NCBI RefSeq assembly: GCF_006716425.1
Contig: NZ_VFOZ01000001.1
Coordinates: 3,906,001-3,970,000 of the forward strand
Reading direction: 5' to 3'
DNA from: Actinoallomurus bryophytorum
GTDB taxonomy: Bacteria > Actinomycetota > Actinomycetes > Streptosporangiales > Streptosporangiaceae
DNA: 64,000 bases
Under the pieces are notes generated by a model. That model ran no database searches, was not told the DNA's origin, and was given only the letters and a program-made list of their open reading frames with translations. A program made the position numbers and the translations under genes. This document shows positions 29,667 to 34,911 of the stretch, piece by piece (the first letter of the stretch is position 1; each line of letters starts with the position of its first letter).

Positions 29667-31205
29667 TCAGCGCTGCGCGGGGAGCGCGACCGTGTAGAGG
29701 ACCTTGCCGCTGTAGTCGCGCAGGCGGGTCGTCAGCTCGCCGGAGTGCCCGTCGACGGCGATCTCGCCGAAGAACTGCGAGCCTTCCAGCGGTGAGGTGT
29801 TGGCGTGCGGCGGCACCGCCTGGAACTTCACCGTGGGGCCGAAGGTCGTGTCCAGGACGCTCGGGCCGAAGGCGCCGGCGTTCAGTGGCCCGGACACGAA
29901 CTCCCAGAACGGGTCGAAGTCCTGGAACGCCGCCTTCGCGGGGTCGTAGTAGTGCGCGGCCGTGTAGTGCACGTCGGTGGTGATCCAGACGACGTTCCGC
30001 ACCCGGTGCTTCTTGATCGAGGACAGCACGCCGGCCATCTGCAGCTCGCGGCCCAGCGGTGTGCCGTTGTCGCCCTGGGAGACGGCCTCGATGCGGTCGG
30101 CGTCCGGCACCACGAGCGACAGCGGCATGTCGGCGGCGACGATCTTCCAGGTGGCCTTGGAGGCGGCCAGCGAGCGTTTCAGCCACTCGGCCTGGCGGGC
30201 GCCGAGGATGCCCTGGTCGTCGGCCGTCTGGTCGTCCGGGCCGTTCGCGTTGCGGTAGGTCCGCATGTCGAGCACGAACACGTCCAGCAGCGGGCCGTAG
30301 GAGATCTTCCGGTAGATCCGGCCGTCCTGGTGCGGCTGCTGGGTGATCGGGAGGTACTCGAAGAACGCCTGCCGGGCACGTACCGACAGCACGTCCGTGC
30401 GCTTCTCGGTGTAGTTCGGGTCGTCCAGGATCTCGCCCGGGTACCAGTTGTTGTGCGTCTCGTGGTCGTCCCACTGGTTGATCTGCGGGATGGCGGCGGC
30501 GAGGGCGCGCAGGTTGTCGTCCATCAGGTTGTACTTGTGCTGGCCGCGGTACTCCGCGAGGGTCTCGGCGACCTTCGACTTCTCCGGAGTCGTGAGGTTG
30601 CGGTAGATCCGGCCGTCCGGGAGCGTGACGGTGGGCAGGATCGGGTTGTCGGCGTACCAGTGGTCGCCGTTGCACAGGAAGAAGTCCGGGTCGGTAGCCT
30701 GGATCGCCTTGAAGATCCGGTATCCGCCGATGTCGGGGTTGATGCCGAAGCCCTGCCCGGCGAGGTCGCCGGACCAGACGAAGCTGACGTCACGGCGCGT
30801 CGTCGGGGCGGTGCCGAAGGCGCCGGTGACCGCCGCGGAGGCGAGGGACGAGTCGTGCAGGTCGGCGGCGCGTACCCGGTAGTGGATCTGCTGCCCGGCG
30901 GGCAGCCCGTCCAGCCGCACCTTTCCGGTCAGGTCGGTGTCCGGGGTGAGCAGCGGTCCGCGCACGGTCGAGAAGTGCTTGAAGTCCGGGCGCGTGCTGA
31001 CGTCGACCAGCATCCGCGAGGGCCGGTCGGCGCGGGTCCAGACGACGCCGCCGTGGGCGGACATGTCACCGCTCTGCACGCCATGCGTTAGCTGCGGGCG
31101 GCCGGAGCGCACCAGGGCGGTGGCGCGCGGGCCGGTGCCCAGCAGCGCGGCCCCTCCGCCCGCGACGAGGCCGTTGCGAAGAAAAGAACGCCGGTCCAGA
31201 CCCAT
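29667..31205 (-). CDS. phoD: PhoD-type alkaline phosphatase/phosphodiesterase, Tat-exported
   Basis: 512 residues from the ATG that gives MGLDRRSFLRNGLVAGGGAA, a twin-arginine signal (RRSFLR). PhoD metal-site motifs are visible: SGDLAGQ, CNGDHWYADN, INQWDDHETHNNWYPG and WITTDVHYTAAHYYDP. The N-terminal Fn3-like PhoD domain has HGVQSGDMSAHGGVVWTRAD. It should release phosphate from esters outside the cell. A PHO-box-like direct repeat is seen about 120-135 bp upstream. Confidence 0.93.
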   Translation of the reverse strand: MGLDRRSFLRNGLVAGGGAALLGTGPRATALVRSGRPQLTHGVQSGDMSAHGGVVWTRADRPSRMLVDVSTRPDFKHFSTVRGPLLTPDTDLTGKVRLDGLPAGQQIHYRVRAADLHDSSLASAAVTGAFGTAPTTRRDVSFVWSGDLAGQGFGINPDIGGYRIFKAIQATDPDFFLCNGDHWYADNPILPTVTLPDGRIYRNLTTPEKSKVAETLAEYRGQHKYNLMDDNLRALAAAIPQINQWDDHETHNNWYPGEILDDPNYTEKRTDVLSVRARQAFFEYLPITQQPHQDGRIYRKISYGPLLDVFVLDMRTYRNANGPDDQTADDQGILGARQAEWLKRSLAASKATWKIVAADMPLSLVVPDADRIEAVSQGDNGTPLGRELQMAGVLSSIKKHRVRNVVWITTDVHYTAAHYYDPAKAAFQDFDPFWEFVSGPLNAGAFGPSVLDTTFGPTVKFQAVPPHANTSPLEGSQFFGEIAVDGHSGELTTRLRDYSGKVLYTVALPAQR

Positions 31206-31323
31206 GTCCCCACTCCCGTCTCGTGAGAGCCCGCGTGGATGGGACCGCGCTACCGCGCGTCGCCCAGGCGGCCTCAAGCCGCACTGATCGTGGCGTGGCG
31301 CGGCGTACGGCGCCAGGACCGAA

Positions 31324-31341
31324 GGTGGCCAACCGGTGAAC
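31324..31341 (-). promoter_or_regulatory. PHO-box-like direct repeat upstream of phoD
   Basis: Read on the minus strand, GTTCACC (31341-31335), four bases, then GGCCACC (31330-31324) form an 11-bp-period direct repeat as in the PhoP box of Streptomyces. A third, poor unit GTCCTGG follows at the same period. Only the first unit matches the consensus perfectly. Confidence 0.4.
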
Positions 31342-31403
31342 TATTCGACGTCTGCGCCTGGGCGAACGGCGTGCTTTGTGGCTGGTCGCGGCATTAGTCC
31401 AGC

Positions 31404-31433
31404 TTGACAGGGCGCGAACGCGGCTAGCAGACT
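31404..31433 (+). promoter_or_regulatory. Promoter of the Cys leader peptide and cupin gene
   Basis: A perfect TTGACA -35 (31404-31409) is followed by 18 bases and CAGACT (31428-31433) as a possible -10, with TAGCAG at 31425-31430 as an alternative. The leader ATG is at 31440, 6 bases after CAGACT, so the transcript is probably leaderless. Confidence 0.6.
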
Positions 31434-31439
31434 TCTCCC

Positions 31440-31520
31440 ATGCCAGCGCGTACCCTTCCGGCCGCCGACGTGGAGTCCCGCCACGCGGTCGTCGCGCTGT
31501 GTCCTTCGTGTTGTCGCTGA
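31440..31520 (+). CDS. Cysteine-rich leader peptide (putative attenuator)
   Basis: The 26-codon frame reads MPARTLPAADVESRHAVVAL, then CPSCCR and TGA. Three of the last six residues are Cys (codons 21, 24 and 25). It begins at or near the predicted transcript 5' end and has no ribosome site, as in the leaderless poly-cysteine short ORFs reported in mycobacteria as cysteine-responsive attenuators. It precedes a cysteine-dioxygenase-like cupin gene by 55 bp. Its Cys-codon region overlaps a sequence complementary to that gene's ribosome site. Existence as a translated peptide is inferred from these coinciding features. Confidence 0.65.
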   Translation: MPARTLPAADVESRHAVVALCPSCCR

Positions 31521-31570
31521 CCTGACCTCCGTCTCGTCAGCCCGCGGCGCTCGGCCGCTGTCCGAAGGAC
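31501..31570 (+). promoter_or_regulatory. Anti-Shine-Dalgarno pairing over the leader's Cys codons
   Basis: GTCCTTCG (31501-31508), which spans leader codons 21-23, is an exact complement of CGAAGGAC (31563-31570), the ribosome site of the cupin gene. Pairing would hide the site. A GCGGC/GCCGC hairpin (31544-31548 and 31554-31558) lies between. A ribosome paused at the Cys codons would free the site. The complementarity is seen; the switch is inferred. Confidence 0.5.
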
Positions 31571-31575
31571 TTTCC

Positions 31576-31974
31576 ATGAACTTCTCGGTCATCCCCGATA
31601 TCACCATGCAGGCCCACCACGACCTGGCCGGCGGATCCACGATCGGCCGGCTGGCCGGTGTCGTACGCGAGATGGCCGCCCGGCCGGCGTACTGGTGGCA
31701 TCTCGCCCGGTTCGACGGCACCCCGGTGCCGGTGGCGGCGGCGGACGACCTGTGGCTCTCGGCCTGGCCGCCCGGCCACCGCGGCGTCCCGGCCGGCCCC
31801 GGCGTACTCGCGGTGCTCGCGGGTGAGCTGTCCGAGCGGACCATCACCGGCCAGGGCGTCGCCGAACGCACCCTGCGGGCCAACCGGATCCGCGTCTACG
31901 GCACCGACGCCCCCCGTGAGCTGGTCAACCTCGGCCCCGCGTACGCCCTGAGCCTGCACGCGACCACCGCGTGA
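31576..31974 (+). CDS. Cysteine-dioxygenase-like cupin lacking metal ligands
   Basis: 132 residues from ATG 31576, with GAAGGA 6 bases upstream. TIGRLAGVVREMAARPAYWWHLARFD and VLAVLAGELSERTI, then RIRVYGTDAPRELVNLGPAYALSLHA, follow the layout of actinomycete cysteine dioxygenases. The HxH expected before the 'GxxxVLxGEL' strand is missing (GHRGVPAGPGVLAVLAGEL), as is the later His before the Asn (PRELVN). A thiol-oxidising iron enzyme would need these residues, so this protein may bind a thiol without catalysis. The family assignment is from pattern recall and moderately sure. Confidence 0.65.
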   Translation: MNFSVIPDITMQAHHDLAGGSTIGRLAGVVREMAARPAYWWHLARFDGTPVPVAAADDLWLSAWPPGHRGVPAGPGVLAVLAGELSERTITGQGVAERTLRANRIRVYGTDAPRELVNLGPAYALSLHATTA

Positions 31975-32012
31975 TGGTCGGGTGAACTCCGCGTACCATC
32001 GCGCGGATACGC

Positions 32013-32207
32013 TCACGGGTCGCGGCGGCGGGACTGGAACACGAGGCGGAACAGGGCGATCGCCCCGATGGCGGCGATGACGGCCGGCACGGCCCAGGGG
32101 AACGAGACCGGGTGGCCGCCGAGTCCCTCGGCCAGATAGCGGGCCGCGATGCCGGCGAACAGGACCGCGGCCACCAGCGAGGACGGGTCGAACCTATGCC
32201 GGAACAC
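32013..32207 (-). CDS. Small membrane protein
   Basis: 64 residues with two predicted membrane segments (LVAAVLFAGIAARYLAEG and WAVPAVIAAIGAIALFRLVF) and a basic end QSRRRDP. Its start lies inside the end of the PspC-domain gene, overlapping by 14 bases, so it is translated from the same mRNA. This small protein commonly follows PspC genes in actinomycetes. Its function is unknown. Confidence 0.75.
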   Translation of the reverse strand: MFRHRFDPSSLVAAVLFAGIAARYLAEGLGGHPVSFPWAVPAVIAAIGAIALFRLVFQSRRRDP

Positions 32208-33588
32208 GCGTGACCTCCATGTCGCCCACCTTGCTCCGGATGTGCAGCACGATGGTGGGGATCGGCCCGGCGACCTGGCCTTCGGGCTCGAGCACTCGGC
32301 GTACGCGTGCGCCGGGGCCGCTCGTCACCTGCCGGTCGATGGTGATGTCGCCGAGGTAGGCATGCCCGTCGATCTCCACGCGTGCTGCGGCCGGCACCCT
32401 CACCGCCAGCACACCCAGCGTCACCTGGGCGTTCACGCGGAGCGACTCGCCCGGCGAGAGCGGCACCGTGGTCAGGTCCACGACACCCTGGCCGACGAGG
32501 ACCTTGTGTGACTGCTCGGCCTGCGCGGTCGCGACCGGGCGCCAGATCTGATGATGCGTCTTCCGTGCGACGGCGGCGTTGCCGGCGATCGAGGTCGATG
32601 CGAGGGCGAAGGACATGATGGCTCCAACGAGGACGAGCTTGCGGTCCCGGCCGAACCAGGCACCGAGAAAGAGGCCGCAGGCGATGACCGCCAGCGCCCC
32701 GGCGATGACGACCTGGTACCGGCTGAAAGCGGTCCGGTCGTCGACGGTCAGGTACAGCACGGCGCCGACGATCACGGCCGTCAGCAAGGTCAGCGTGGCG
32801 AGGTAGGACCGGCGATGCGGCCGGACCCACGGGGACTCGGCGGGCGGCGGCGCGGCGTCGGCCGCGTGCGGGCCCTGGGAATAGGGGTCGGTGCCGTACG
32901 GGCCGGGGACGGTGTCGGAGGGTTCGGCCGTGTCCGCCGGCGGCGTGTGCGCGGCCGTGGAGCCCGAAGCGGCGGCGTAGGGGCCCGCGGCGTACGTGTC
33001 TCCGCGCCGGCCGAGCCGGGCGAGGTCCACCATGCCGTCGGACAGCCCCGGGGCCGGCGCGGGTGGCGGCGTCCAGGACGACAGCGGCCGGCCCTTGATG
33101 TGGTCCGGCAGGCCGCGAGCGACCTGAACGAGGTCGACGCCACGCGACCGTGCCACGAGCAGTGTCAGGCCGAACACCACGACCACGGCCAGTGCCTTGC
33201 CGGAGCCCCAGTTTCCGGCAATGCCGAACACCATGCCCGCGGCGAACACCGCGCCGAGCAGCGCCAGCGCGGTGTCGCCGTCGAAGATGCGCCGGCCCAT
33301 CCTCTCGATCTTCGAAGGGCCGCCGTCCGGCGCACCCATGAGGAGGAAGGCGGCGATGTACAGCAGCACACCGACGCCGGTCGCGAGTACGAGCAGCGCG
33401 AACGCCACTCGGAACACGATGGCGTCGATGCGCGTATAACGGGCGAGGCCGGCGCAGACACCGGTGATCAGGCGTCCCTCCTGAGAGCGGATGAGCCGTC
33501 GCGGCTCGGCGCCCGCTCGGGGGCCTGGCGGAGCCTCGGCCTGGGGTCCAGGCTCGGAGCTCCGCGGTGGGTCGCTGTCCTCGTTCAT
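32194..33588 (-). CDS. PspC-domain multi-pass membrane protein
   Basis: 464 residues from the ATG giving MNEDSDPPRSSEPGPQ. The PspC domain is at about residues 35-95 (RLITGVCAGLARYTRID, FRVAFALLVLATGVGVLLYIAAFLLM). Further membrane segments follow, then a proline/alanine-rich linker, two more membrane helices and a C-terminal extracytoplasmic domain of beta character (VTLGVLAVRVPAAARVEIDG). It probably senses or buffers envelope stress. It is divergent from a histidine kinase that also begins with a PspC domain. Confidence 0.85.
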   Translation of the reverse strand: MNEDSDPPRSSEPGPQAEAPPGPRAGAEPRRLIRSQEGRLITGVCAGLARYTRIDAIVFRVAFALLVLATGVGVLLYIAAFLLMGAPDGGPSKIERMGRRIFDGDTALALLGAVFAAGMVFGIAGNWGSGKALAVVVVFGLTLLVARSRGVDLVQVARGLPDHIKGRPLSSWTPPPAPAPGLSDGMVDLARLGRRGDTYAAGPYAAASGSTAAHTPPADTAEPSDTVPGPYGTDPYSQGPHAADAAPPPAESPWVRPHRRSYLATLTLLTAVIVGAVLYLTVDDRTAFSRYQVVIAGALAVIACGLFLGAWFGRDRKLVLVGAIMSFALASTSIAGNAAVARKTHHQIWRPVATAQAEQSHKVLVGQGVVDLTTVPLSPGESLRVNAQVTLGVLAVRVPAAARVEIDGHAYLGDITIDRQVTSGPGARVRRVLEPEGQVAGPIPTIVLHIRSKVGDMEVTRVPA

Positions 33589-33717
33589 GGTCCCATCGTC
33601 GCGGGTCCGCGCCGCGACGACCATCCGGGAGGACCCTGACTCATCCCTGAGGGTCTCCGGGATCTCCCAGGGCGGTCCCCGATGCGCTGATGGCCTGGAA
33701 CGTGTGACCATCTCCTT

Positions 33718-34911
33718 GTGTCTGAAACGCCCAGCGGGGAGACCGTCGAGCTGACCCCCCCACGCCTCGAACGACGAGCCGACCGCCGGCTCGTCGCCGG
33801 CGTGTGCTCTGGGCTGGCCGAGCACCTCGGCCTCGAACTGACCGTCGTACGCGTGGCGTTCGCCGTGCTCATCTCCACGGGCGTGGGCATCATCGCGTAC
33901 GTCGCGCTCTGGCTGATGGTGTCGCGCCGTGAGGAGCCCGAGGGCCGCCGTGACCTGGGCCGGCTCGTCGCGTACGGCGCGCTGGTCGGAGGACTCTGCC
34001 TGTTCACGTGGGGGGCGGGCGCGCTCAACTGGGCCGCGTGGCCGATCGTCGCCGGCGGCATCGGGGTCGGGATCATCTGGCAGCAGGCCGATCCGGAGCG
34101 GCGGCAGCGCTGGGTGCGCAACAGCCAGGCCATGTGGCTCCGCAGCATCATCGGCATGCTGCTGGTGGCCGGCGGCCTGGTCGCCTTCCTCGCCAGGAAG
34201 GTCCAGCCGGGTGAGGCCGGGCAGGTGCTGTTCGGCTCGATCGTCGTGCTGGCCGGGTTCGGCGTCGTCGTCGCGCCCTGGCTGCTGCGGATGTGGCGCG
34301 ACCTGGACAGCGAACGCCGCGAGCGCATCCGTTCCCAGGAACGCGCCGAGGTCGCCGCGCACGTACACGACTCCGTCCTGCACACGCTCACGCTGATCCA
34401 GCGCAACGCCCACGACGTGCGCGAGGTACAGCGGCTGGCCCGCTCCCAGGAACGCGACCTGCGCGCCTGGCTGTACGAACCCAAGGCCGACGCCGAACAG
34501 GATCTCGCCGCCGCGGTGCGCAAGGCCGCCGCCGAGGTGGAGGATCATCATGGGATGCCGATCGAGGTGGTGTGCGTGGGCGACTGCCCGCTGGACGAAC
34601 GCCTCGGCGCCATGCTCCAGGCGGCCCGCGAGGCCATGGTCAACGCCGCCAAGTACGCCGATGGCGACCCGGAAGACGAGGCCAGGACCTCGTCACTGTC
34701 GGTCTACGCCGAGGTGGCCGGCGAGGACGTCTCGATCTTCGTACGCGACCGTGGCCGCGGCTTCGACCTCGACGCCGTCCCCCAGGACCGGATGGGCCTG
34801 CGCGAGTCCATCATCGGACGCATGGAGCGCAACGGCGGAAAGGCCGAGATCCGTACGGCCCCGGGCGAGGGCACCGAGGTCAGACTGGAGATGCGGCGCG
34901 ATGCGAAATGA
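33718..34911 (+). CDS. PspC-domain sensor histidine kinase
   Basis: 397 residues from GTG 33718. The PspC domain is at about 15-70 (RRLVAGVCSGLAEHLGLELTVVRVAFAVL). Three to four more membrane helices follow, then a dimerisation helix with the phosphoacceptor in AAHVHDSVLHTLTLIQ (His217) and an ATPase domain with EAMVNAAKYA (N box) and VRDRGRGFDLD. It pairs with the LuxR-type regulator 25 bp downstream. The shared PspC domain with the divergent neighbour suggests both read the same membrane signal. Confidence 0.92.
   Translation: MSETPSGETVELTPPRLERRADRRLVAGVCSGLAEHLGLELTVVRVAFAVLISTGVGIIAYVALWLMVSRREEPEGRRDLGRLVAYGALVGGLCLFTWGAGALNWAAWPIVAGGIGVGIIWQQADPERRQRWVRNSQAMWLRSIIGMLLVAGGLVAFLARKVQPGEAGQVLFGSIVVLAGFGVVVAPWLLRMWRDLDSERRERIRSQERAEVAAHVHDSVLHTLTLIQRNAHDVREVQRLARSQERDLRAWLYEPKADAEQDLAAAVRKAAAEVEDHHGMPIEVVCVGDCPLDERLGAMLQAAREAMVNAAKYADGDPEDEARTSSLSVYAEVAGEDVSIFVRDRGRGFDLDAVPQDRMGLRESIIGRMERNGGKAEIRTAPGEGTEVRLEMRRDAK

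Follow-up and report, generated by a model that had tools for sequence, protein, structure and literature searches.

A short open reading frame (sORF) ending in Cys codons lies just upstream of a small cupin gene of Actinoallomurus bryophytorum. The question raised by this locus is whether the sORF switches the gene in response to cysteine and, if so, what kind of protein is placed under such control. The DNA analysed (hereafter, the window) is the whole stretch of 64,000 nucleotides from positions 3,906,001 to 3,970,000 of contig NZ_VFOZ01000001.1 (contig C1 of a 9.47-Mb genome); coordinates below are window positions, and all features are on the plus strand. A cysteine-responsive translational attenuator was the best explanation of the data, and we hold it with considerable confidence.

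Leader elements in the window

The sORF (26 codons, MPARTLPAADVESRHAVVALCPSCCR) starts at the ATG at 31440, stops at 31518-31520 and ends 55 nt 5' of the cupin ATG at 31576. An earlier note had proposed this frame with terminal Cys codons from the letters of the sequence alone; its position (31440-31520) was confirmed, a Cys-ended frame is kept in relatives, and the sORF is predicted to encode a leaderless Cys leader peptide. The codons for Cys-Pro-Ser-Cys-Cys (31500-31514), with three Cys codons in the window, are the proposed sensor. Within the Cys-Pro-Ser codons, GTCCTTCG (31501-31508) is the exact complement of CGAAGGAC (31563-31570), which contains the Shine-Dalgarno (SD) sequence of the cupin gene; on the basis of sequence, relatives and folding, these segments were assigned as the 5' arm (putative anti-SD) and the 3' arm of a helix, P2. 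The arms of a second predicted helix, P1, are CAGCGCG (31444-31450) and CGCGCTG (31493-31499), the latter adjoining the first Cys codon on its 5' side. The minimum-energy fold of the window RNA contained P1, P2 and, inside P2, a third helix (P3) between GCTGAC (31516-31521, in the stop-codon region) and GTCAGC (31536-31541); matching P3 arms were visible in the eight Actinoallomurus rows of alignment A3 (see below), one of them with a G-U pair. The putative regulated gene (31576-31974) encodes a cupin of 132 aa with a predicted thiol-dioxygenase fold and without iron ligands, and the next frames downstream of it are on the opposite strand. Rfam gave no match across the whole window at gathering scores, and no tandem repeats were found within 30000-34000.

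Cys-ended frames upstream of related cupin genes

A protein search recovered the cupin gene from every one of the 7 other genomes in the genus; overall, 20 of 60 genomes had it, its own included. A profile search of 341 genomes of the family gave matches in 156, more distant paralogs of the cysteine dioxygenase (CDO) type included. Of the 135 loci with an A1 match, 28 repeats (L051-L058, and the 20 matching loci among L079-L103) and 12 paralogous or distant loci (L016, L018, L020 and L023-L031; the script found no Cys-ended frame at 10 of them) were excluded, so that 95 subfamily loci (94 distinct) were kept. The leader script required Cys within the last five residues and at least two Cys within the last nine. 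Under these settings, a Cys-ended frame was found upstream of the cupin gene at 94 of the 95 loci (94 rows, or 93 distinct loci, since L011 and L069 are one place), and at the one missed by the script (L127, genome G306) the leader MPARISLDGPVALRRVASALCPSCR was found by peptide search. The last nine residues hold 2 to 5 Cys codons per row (94 rows), the minimum of two being imposed by the script, and a terminal run of Cys codons is conserved upstream of the orthologous genes. The sORF-to-gene spacing ranges from 38 to 157 nt, and the Actinomadura peptides share an end whose conservation extends beyond Cys (RVASALCPSC).

A profile built from 20 leader peptides gave one strong match in the own genome, namely this locus (E 5e-12; the next, 0.12). 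In the 341 family genomes it gave 95 matches, of which 77 were directly upstream of the cupin gene; the remaining 18 had E values of 3.4e-6 or worse, and the five of these that were inspected were of the HVDL/HVDF..SALC type. Conversely, 23 of 100 subfamily cupins had no leader-profile match at 1e-4, and for 18 of those 23 (G300, G357, G359, G360 and G361 excluded) divergent Cys-ended frames were present in the inspected upstream DNA. A peptide-profile search of 396 genomes of the phylum returned the own genome and three weak matches (E 1.4e-4 to 8.5e-4), which were treated as noise. When genome contigs were scanned for TGTCCTTCGTGTTGTN{42,72}CGAAGG, 25 loci were obtained; the 20 with a cupin gene belong to Actinomadura, Actinoallomurus or less precisely named actinobacteria, and the other five, from unrelated taxa, had no cupin match within the DNA stretch examined.

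Outside the family, a distant homolog (L016, genome G057) has a Cys-rich frame upstream (..ARCSCCRCSSC). Gene neighbours were viewed at nine named loci and named by inspection: L083, L088, L091 and L093 have a divergent phosphatase-like frame upstream, and L091 has a same-strand, possibly transporter-like frame about 150 nt downstream.

The choice of Cys codon in the leaders is uneven: their last 15 codons contain 292 TGT and 19 TGC (94 leaders), against 23 TGT and 85 TGC in 26 long high-GC3 ORFs of the window, some of which may be spurious. The bias towards TGT is consistent with selection for base pairing to the SD; it could also stem from slower decoding of this codon.

Promoter and transcript start

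A TTGACA -35 box lies at 31404-31409, 36 nt 5' of the sORF start. In the relatives, 85 of 94 rows have TTGAC 35-38 nt 5' of the sORF start, a count that is reduced from 88 by the removal of the spurious L131, L144 and L152 and for which the script had chosen the start codons by TTGAC spacing. In an unselected listing, in which TTGAC was sought 20-60 nt before any in-frame ATG or GTG, the peaks were at 36 nt (23 cases) and 37 nt (61 cases), the next being at 31 nt (18 cases). With a -35 box at this distance and the usual promoter spacing, transcription would begin at the sORF start codon or beside it; there would then be no room for an untranslated leader, and the fixed TTGAC spacing supports leaderless transcription. 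The earlier note had put a leaderless start at or beside the ATG at 31440, which agrees with the TTGACA box and its conserved spacing and agrees poorly with the -10 box and with a strict sigma-70 scan of 31200-32250, which gave no promoter.

Pairing of the Cys codons with the SD

The 8-base complementarity, although exact as first reported, is not significant in the window by itself: shuffled leader ends were equal or better in 16% of cases (p = 0.16). Since the match in the window alone is weak, the case for more than chance pairing rests on the relatives, in which it is strong. At least seven Watson-Crick pairs between the frame end and the SD region were found in 82 of 94 rows, compared with 7 of 94 for the control (the 36 nt that come before this segment in each frame), and the longest exact helix averaged 8.76 pairs versus 4.87 for those 36 nt. 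A few of the 82 helices are built from other bases (e.g., L015). With G-U pairs counted, at least eight pairs were found in 84 of 94 rows versus 7 of 94 in the control; row by row, the helix was better than shuffles at p <= 0.05 in only 64 of 94. Among the 12 of 94 rows without a 7-pair Watson-Crick helix, L060, L067, L077, L115 and L163 had at least 10 pairs once G-U was counted; the helix of L011/L069, L017, L131, L154, L160 and L162 stayed weak even so. Duplex energies averaged -21.6 for the own leaders and -15.8 for shuffled leaders, with 52 of 94 rows at p <= 0.05 (the window, at 0.13, not among them); against synonymous recoding (mean -13.9), 76 of 94 were better, including the window (0.025).

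Own leaders matched their own SD regions with a mean of 8.78 pairs, which exceeded all of 2000 random re-pairings (mean 8.22; relatedness ignored). For the column-wise analysis, 90 of the 94 rows were aligned (alignment A3; L069, L106, L113 and L146 left out). The 8-pair helix was 93.2% paired in these 90 sequences (711 cells), and slid partners were 35-57% paired. Covariation between the 8-base arms, which had been named beforehand as a check, was scarce column by column: changes on both sides occurred in only four cells and two pairs (1 and 38 of 500 shuffles did as well), further pair types were unremarkable in number (185 of 500 shuffles), and the covariation score was reached by 22 of 500 shuffles. 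The evidence for P2 in this alignment is mostly invariance, and the SD and the codons can be invariant for other reasons.

Compensatory change was seen at the level of the whole helix. In genus g87 (L060, L065, L075, L077 and L115), the CCTTCG arm is absent, and a replacement helix of 10-14 bp (G-U counted) joins Cys/Arg codons to changed bases just 5' of the SD (p <= 0.005 each). It is the best compensatory case, in which the masking helix appears to have moved and both strands to have changed to match. The second is given by four Actinomadura loci (L117, L135, L137 and L148), in which the CPAC codons contain TCCTG and the SD side contains CAGGAC. The loss of Cys codons and of complementary arms in related genomes had been set as a refuting result for the proposed switch; both were found to be conserved.

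P1 and the predicted effect of a ribosome on the Cys codons

P1 was examined in 85 of the 94 rows, and at least six pairs were found at 74 of 85 loci versus 8 of 85 in the control. Its variable pair, counted at the 65 loci with GCG as the third codon, is A-U at 52, G-U at 4 and G-C at 3 (all in g87), and is unpaired at 6. The AGCGC core of P1 is absent at 21 of 85 loci and sits in two reading-frame positions at the others (52 and 12 loci), a pattern suggestive of conservation at the RNA level and not at the peptide level.

Switching was evaluated at 91 of the 94 loci by static folding, which does not represent kinetics. The mean unpaired fraction of the SD was predicted to be 0.060 in the free RNA, 0.326 with a ribosome on the first Cys codon of the tract and 0.064 with a ribosome 12 codons earlier, and accessibility rose by at least 0.2 at 63 of 91 loci versus 1 of 91 in the control. 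The SD was paired to the leader end with a mean probability of 0.84, and 0.99 in the window. In the window itself, the folding contrast was small (0.00 free, 0.27 with the ribosome stalled on Cys, 0.16 with the ribosome stalled earlier). By comparison and folding, the leader is thus predicted to form a structure that masks the ribosome-binding site unless a ribosome is on the Cys codons.

Proposed mechanism and alternatives

RNA polymerase would initiate at the ATG of the 26-codon leaderless frame or beside it. When Cys-tRNA is plentiful, the ribosome would pass the CPSCC codons, terminate and depart; the Cys codons would then pair with the cupin SD (P2, beside P1), a helix seen by comparison and folding, and the gene would be off. 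When Cys-tRNA is short, the ribosome would wait on the Cys codons and cover the anti-SD arm, the SD is predicted by folding to become free, and the cupin would be translated. The earlier note's idea of a translational switch survived the comparative tests (conserved Cys codons, conserved arms and compensatory cases), with pausing and release as its inferred steps.

Three other readings were weighed. Transcription attenuation, in which the leader acts on a terminator upstream of the gene (intrinsic or Rho-dependent) and not on the SD, is the classical model for amino-acid leaders, and Rho has been proposed for mycobacterial cys leaders (PMC1262725). However, the one terminator-like match (31483-31502) falls within the sORF, where it overlaps the arms; between the sORF and the gene the scan, Rho sites aside, found none, and it is the SD with which conserved pairing occurs; this reading is improbable. 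Slightly less probable still is plain translational coupling or re-initiation, in which the sORF merely delivers ribosomes and its Cys codons sense nothing. The short sORF-gene spacing given above would suit it, and leaderless sORFs are described as common in mycobacteria (PMC4633059), but the Cys-rich end, the preference of TGT over TGC, the paired arms and P1 would all be left unexplained.

In erm leaders, translational attenuation has the same output architecture as that proposed here. A stall peptide that senses an antibiotic, a metal or oxidised thiols in place of Cys-tRNA and acts through P2 in the manner of those leaders would also accommodate the conservation of the Actinomadura peptide end beyond Cys, but the number of Cys differs between loci, and NF042934-type leaders of the own genome with the ASALC core lie before genes that, by inspection, include ones for transport of the sulfur type, for sulfite reduction and for a paralog of CDO; this is the least credible of the three. 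The cysteine-responsive translational attenuator is accordingly retained as the preferred reading in what follows.

The putative target cupin and its lost iron site

Searches of Pfam and NCBIfam with the window protein gave nothing up to E = 10, and phmmer against PDB gave one match, at chance level (E 1.1); the family profile matched 8qfo in PDB (E 5e-6). With AlphaFold2, the best model had a mean pLDDT of 82, with residues 1-18 poor, and two of the five models were below 50. The best PDB match of this model in Foldseek was the ergothioneine dioxygenase 8qfl (E 5e-6, TM 0.68 by query length); 4z82 followed with E 6e-6 (TM 0.62 by query length), and mammalian CDO structures were among the best matches. 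The window protein is thus predicted from its model to have the cupin fold of CDO. In searches with PF05995 (cut-off 23), L012 (33.2 bits) and L011 (31.7 bits) passed, L014 (14.4) was below the cut-off, and the window protein and L008 gave no match.

Ligand positions were read from a MAFFT alignment with the paralog L026 as the reference, using the three His that are the iron ligands of cysteine dioxygenase. None of the three is present in the 8 of 8 Actinoallomurus proteins, the window protein included; 60 of 94 rows lack one or more (L019, cut by a contig end and not fully judgeable, is counted here), and 34 of 94, or 33 of 93 distinct loci, retain the full triad. The description of the protein as cysteine-dioxygenase-like therefore holds for the modelled fold and not for the iron site, nor was it recovered by the Pfam and NCBIfam searches. 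Within Actinomadura, the triad varies (HQH, HGQ, RRN, HRC and others, e.g., among L104-L158), a variety that suggests several independent losses. Across 28 Actinoallomurus pairs, dN/dS was 0.135-0.449 (NG86), which indicates purifying selection, and 92 of the 95 proteins, counting L026, retain a His close to the C-terminus; judging from these sequences, what has been maintained seems to be a protein devoid of its metal site.

The Actinoallomurus cupin probably functions without catalysis in a thiol- or sulfur-related role, and not as a cysteine dioxygenase. Its predicted control by cysteine shortage is the opposite of what a cysteine-breaking enzyme needs: because the proposed switch would turn on when cysteine is short, it argues against a role in cysteine degradation. 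For the same reason, and with the iron ligands absent, the earlier suggestion that the sensor amino acid is tied to its own dioxygenase is doubtful. Since the sense of control is opposite to cysteine breakdown, the true role of the annotated 'cysteine dioxygenases' becomes testable. A fuller reading, which we advance tentatively and at somewhat less than even chance, is that the switch controls a pseudo-thiol-dioxygenase that has repeatedly lost its iron site and serves as a non-catalytic thiol/sulfur binder or regulator, made only at cysteine shortage; on this reading, selection has maintained both the protein and its Cys-codon switch. If this were true, actinobacterial 'cysteine dioxygenase' genes behind Cys leaders would serve sulfur scavenging or sensing, not cysteine breakdown. 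Sulfur release from other thiols, or a binding role, are our guesses for the ligand-less cupin.

Comparison with known systems

Canestrari et al. (2020; Mol Microbiol 114:93-108) reportedly found the start site to be masked by leader structure in mycobacterial polycysteine sORFs. According to the accessible parts of later papers that refer to the 2020 work, these leaders act by translational attenuation (PMC9094748, PMC9031893, PMC13236596). The mycobacterial cys operon leaders had been noted in 2005 without a known output structure, the survey of actinobacterial leaders giving none for cys operons in its available text (PMC1262725), and Cys leaders of mycobacteria were seen as leaderless uORFs in 2015, likewise in the part available (PMC4633059). 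The mycobacterial sORFs and the window leader are alike in their terminal Cys codons and, by prediction for the window, in a leaderless start, in control of the next gene via ribosome speed on those codons and in a start site hidden by leader structure. The window leader differs in its lineage and sequence, in its CDO-fold target and in the extra helix P1. Its Cys codons are themselves the putative anti-SD, which may be a further difference.

Two curated NCBIfam models were tried. NF042934 (27 bits needed) gave no match to the window peptide at E <= 10, nor at its place in the genome, and two Actinomadura leaders also failed; NF042936 (leader_Ms4527A, 45 bits needed) matched neither the window peptide nor its genome place. 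The core ..R(V/Q)ASALC.. is common to NF042934 cis_reg_atten leaders and to leaders of the window type. NF042934 has six matches over the cut-off in the own genome. Unlike the window leader, the NF042934-type leaders of this genome reach a leader-SD helix of at most six pairs (7 of 8 leaders, being the six over the cut-off and L039, not L038). One of the six precedes the canonical CDO-type paralog (L026, HDHG kept), so that CDO-type genes are tied to Cys leaders twice in the own genome. Together, L032-L039 (six over the cut-off, L038 and L039 below) make up a genome-wide set of Cys leaders, whose targets by inspection are two solute-binding proteins, an ABC permease, a small membrane protein, the canonical CDO-type paralog, a HEAT-repeat-like protein, a sulfite-reductase-like gene and a winged-helix-like regulator. 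Upstream of the canonical CDO-type paralogs L024-L030 (and of L031, with changes), there is a promoter-like motif close to TTGACTTAGTRGG. In genome G033, a hybrid leader (MRSRRTRKTHVDLRRVSSALCPSC, L185) lies 244 nt 5' of a cupin-like gene with ACACGAAGGAC at the SD; this hybrid HVDLRRVSSALCPSC frame links the window leader type to NF042934.

On the protein side, CDO_I (PF05995) and the Thermocatellispora ergothioneine dioxygenase (8qfl) share the predicted fold of the window protein, which differs from them in having no Pfam match and in lacking all three iron ligands. No publication on Cys leaders before CDO-type genes was found in a literature search mostly without subscription journals. The LEU element of actinobacterial leuA, as described in the 2005 survey, is alike in that consecutive codons for one amino acid within a leader peptide base-pair to the downstream gene's SD, and unlike in that it concerns leucine, a pseudoknot and leuA (PMC1262725).

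The kind of mechanism is already known, since both attenuation by Cys leaders and codon-SD pairing in LEU have been described before. What is new is a leader subfamily whose Cys codons are the predicted anti-SD and which is tied to a CDO-fold protein; it counts as new because both curated models that were tried miss it and because leaders of the known model reach at most six SD pairs. It adds to the Cys leaders a subfamily that these NCBIfam models fail to catch, and with it a Cys-codon leader that has a visible, partly covarying output structure.
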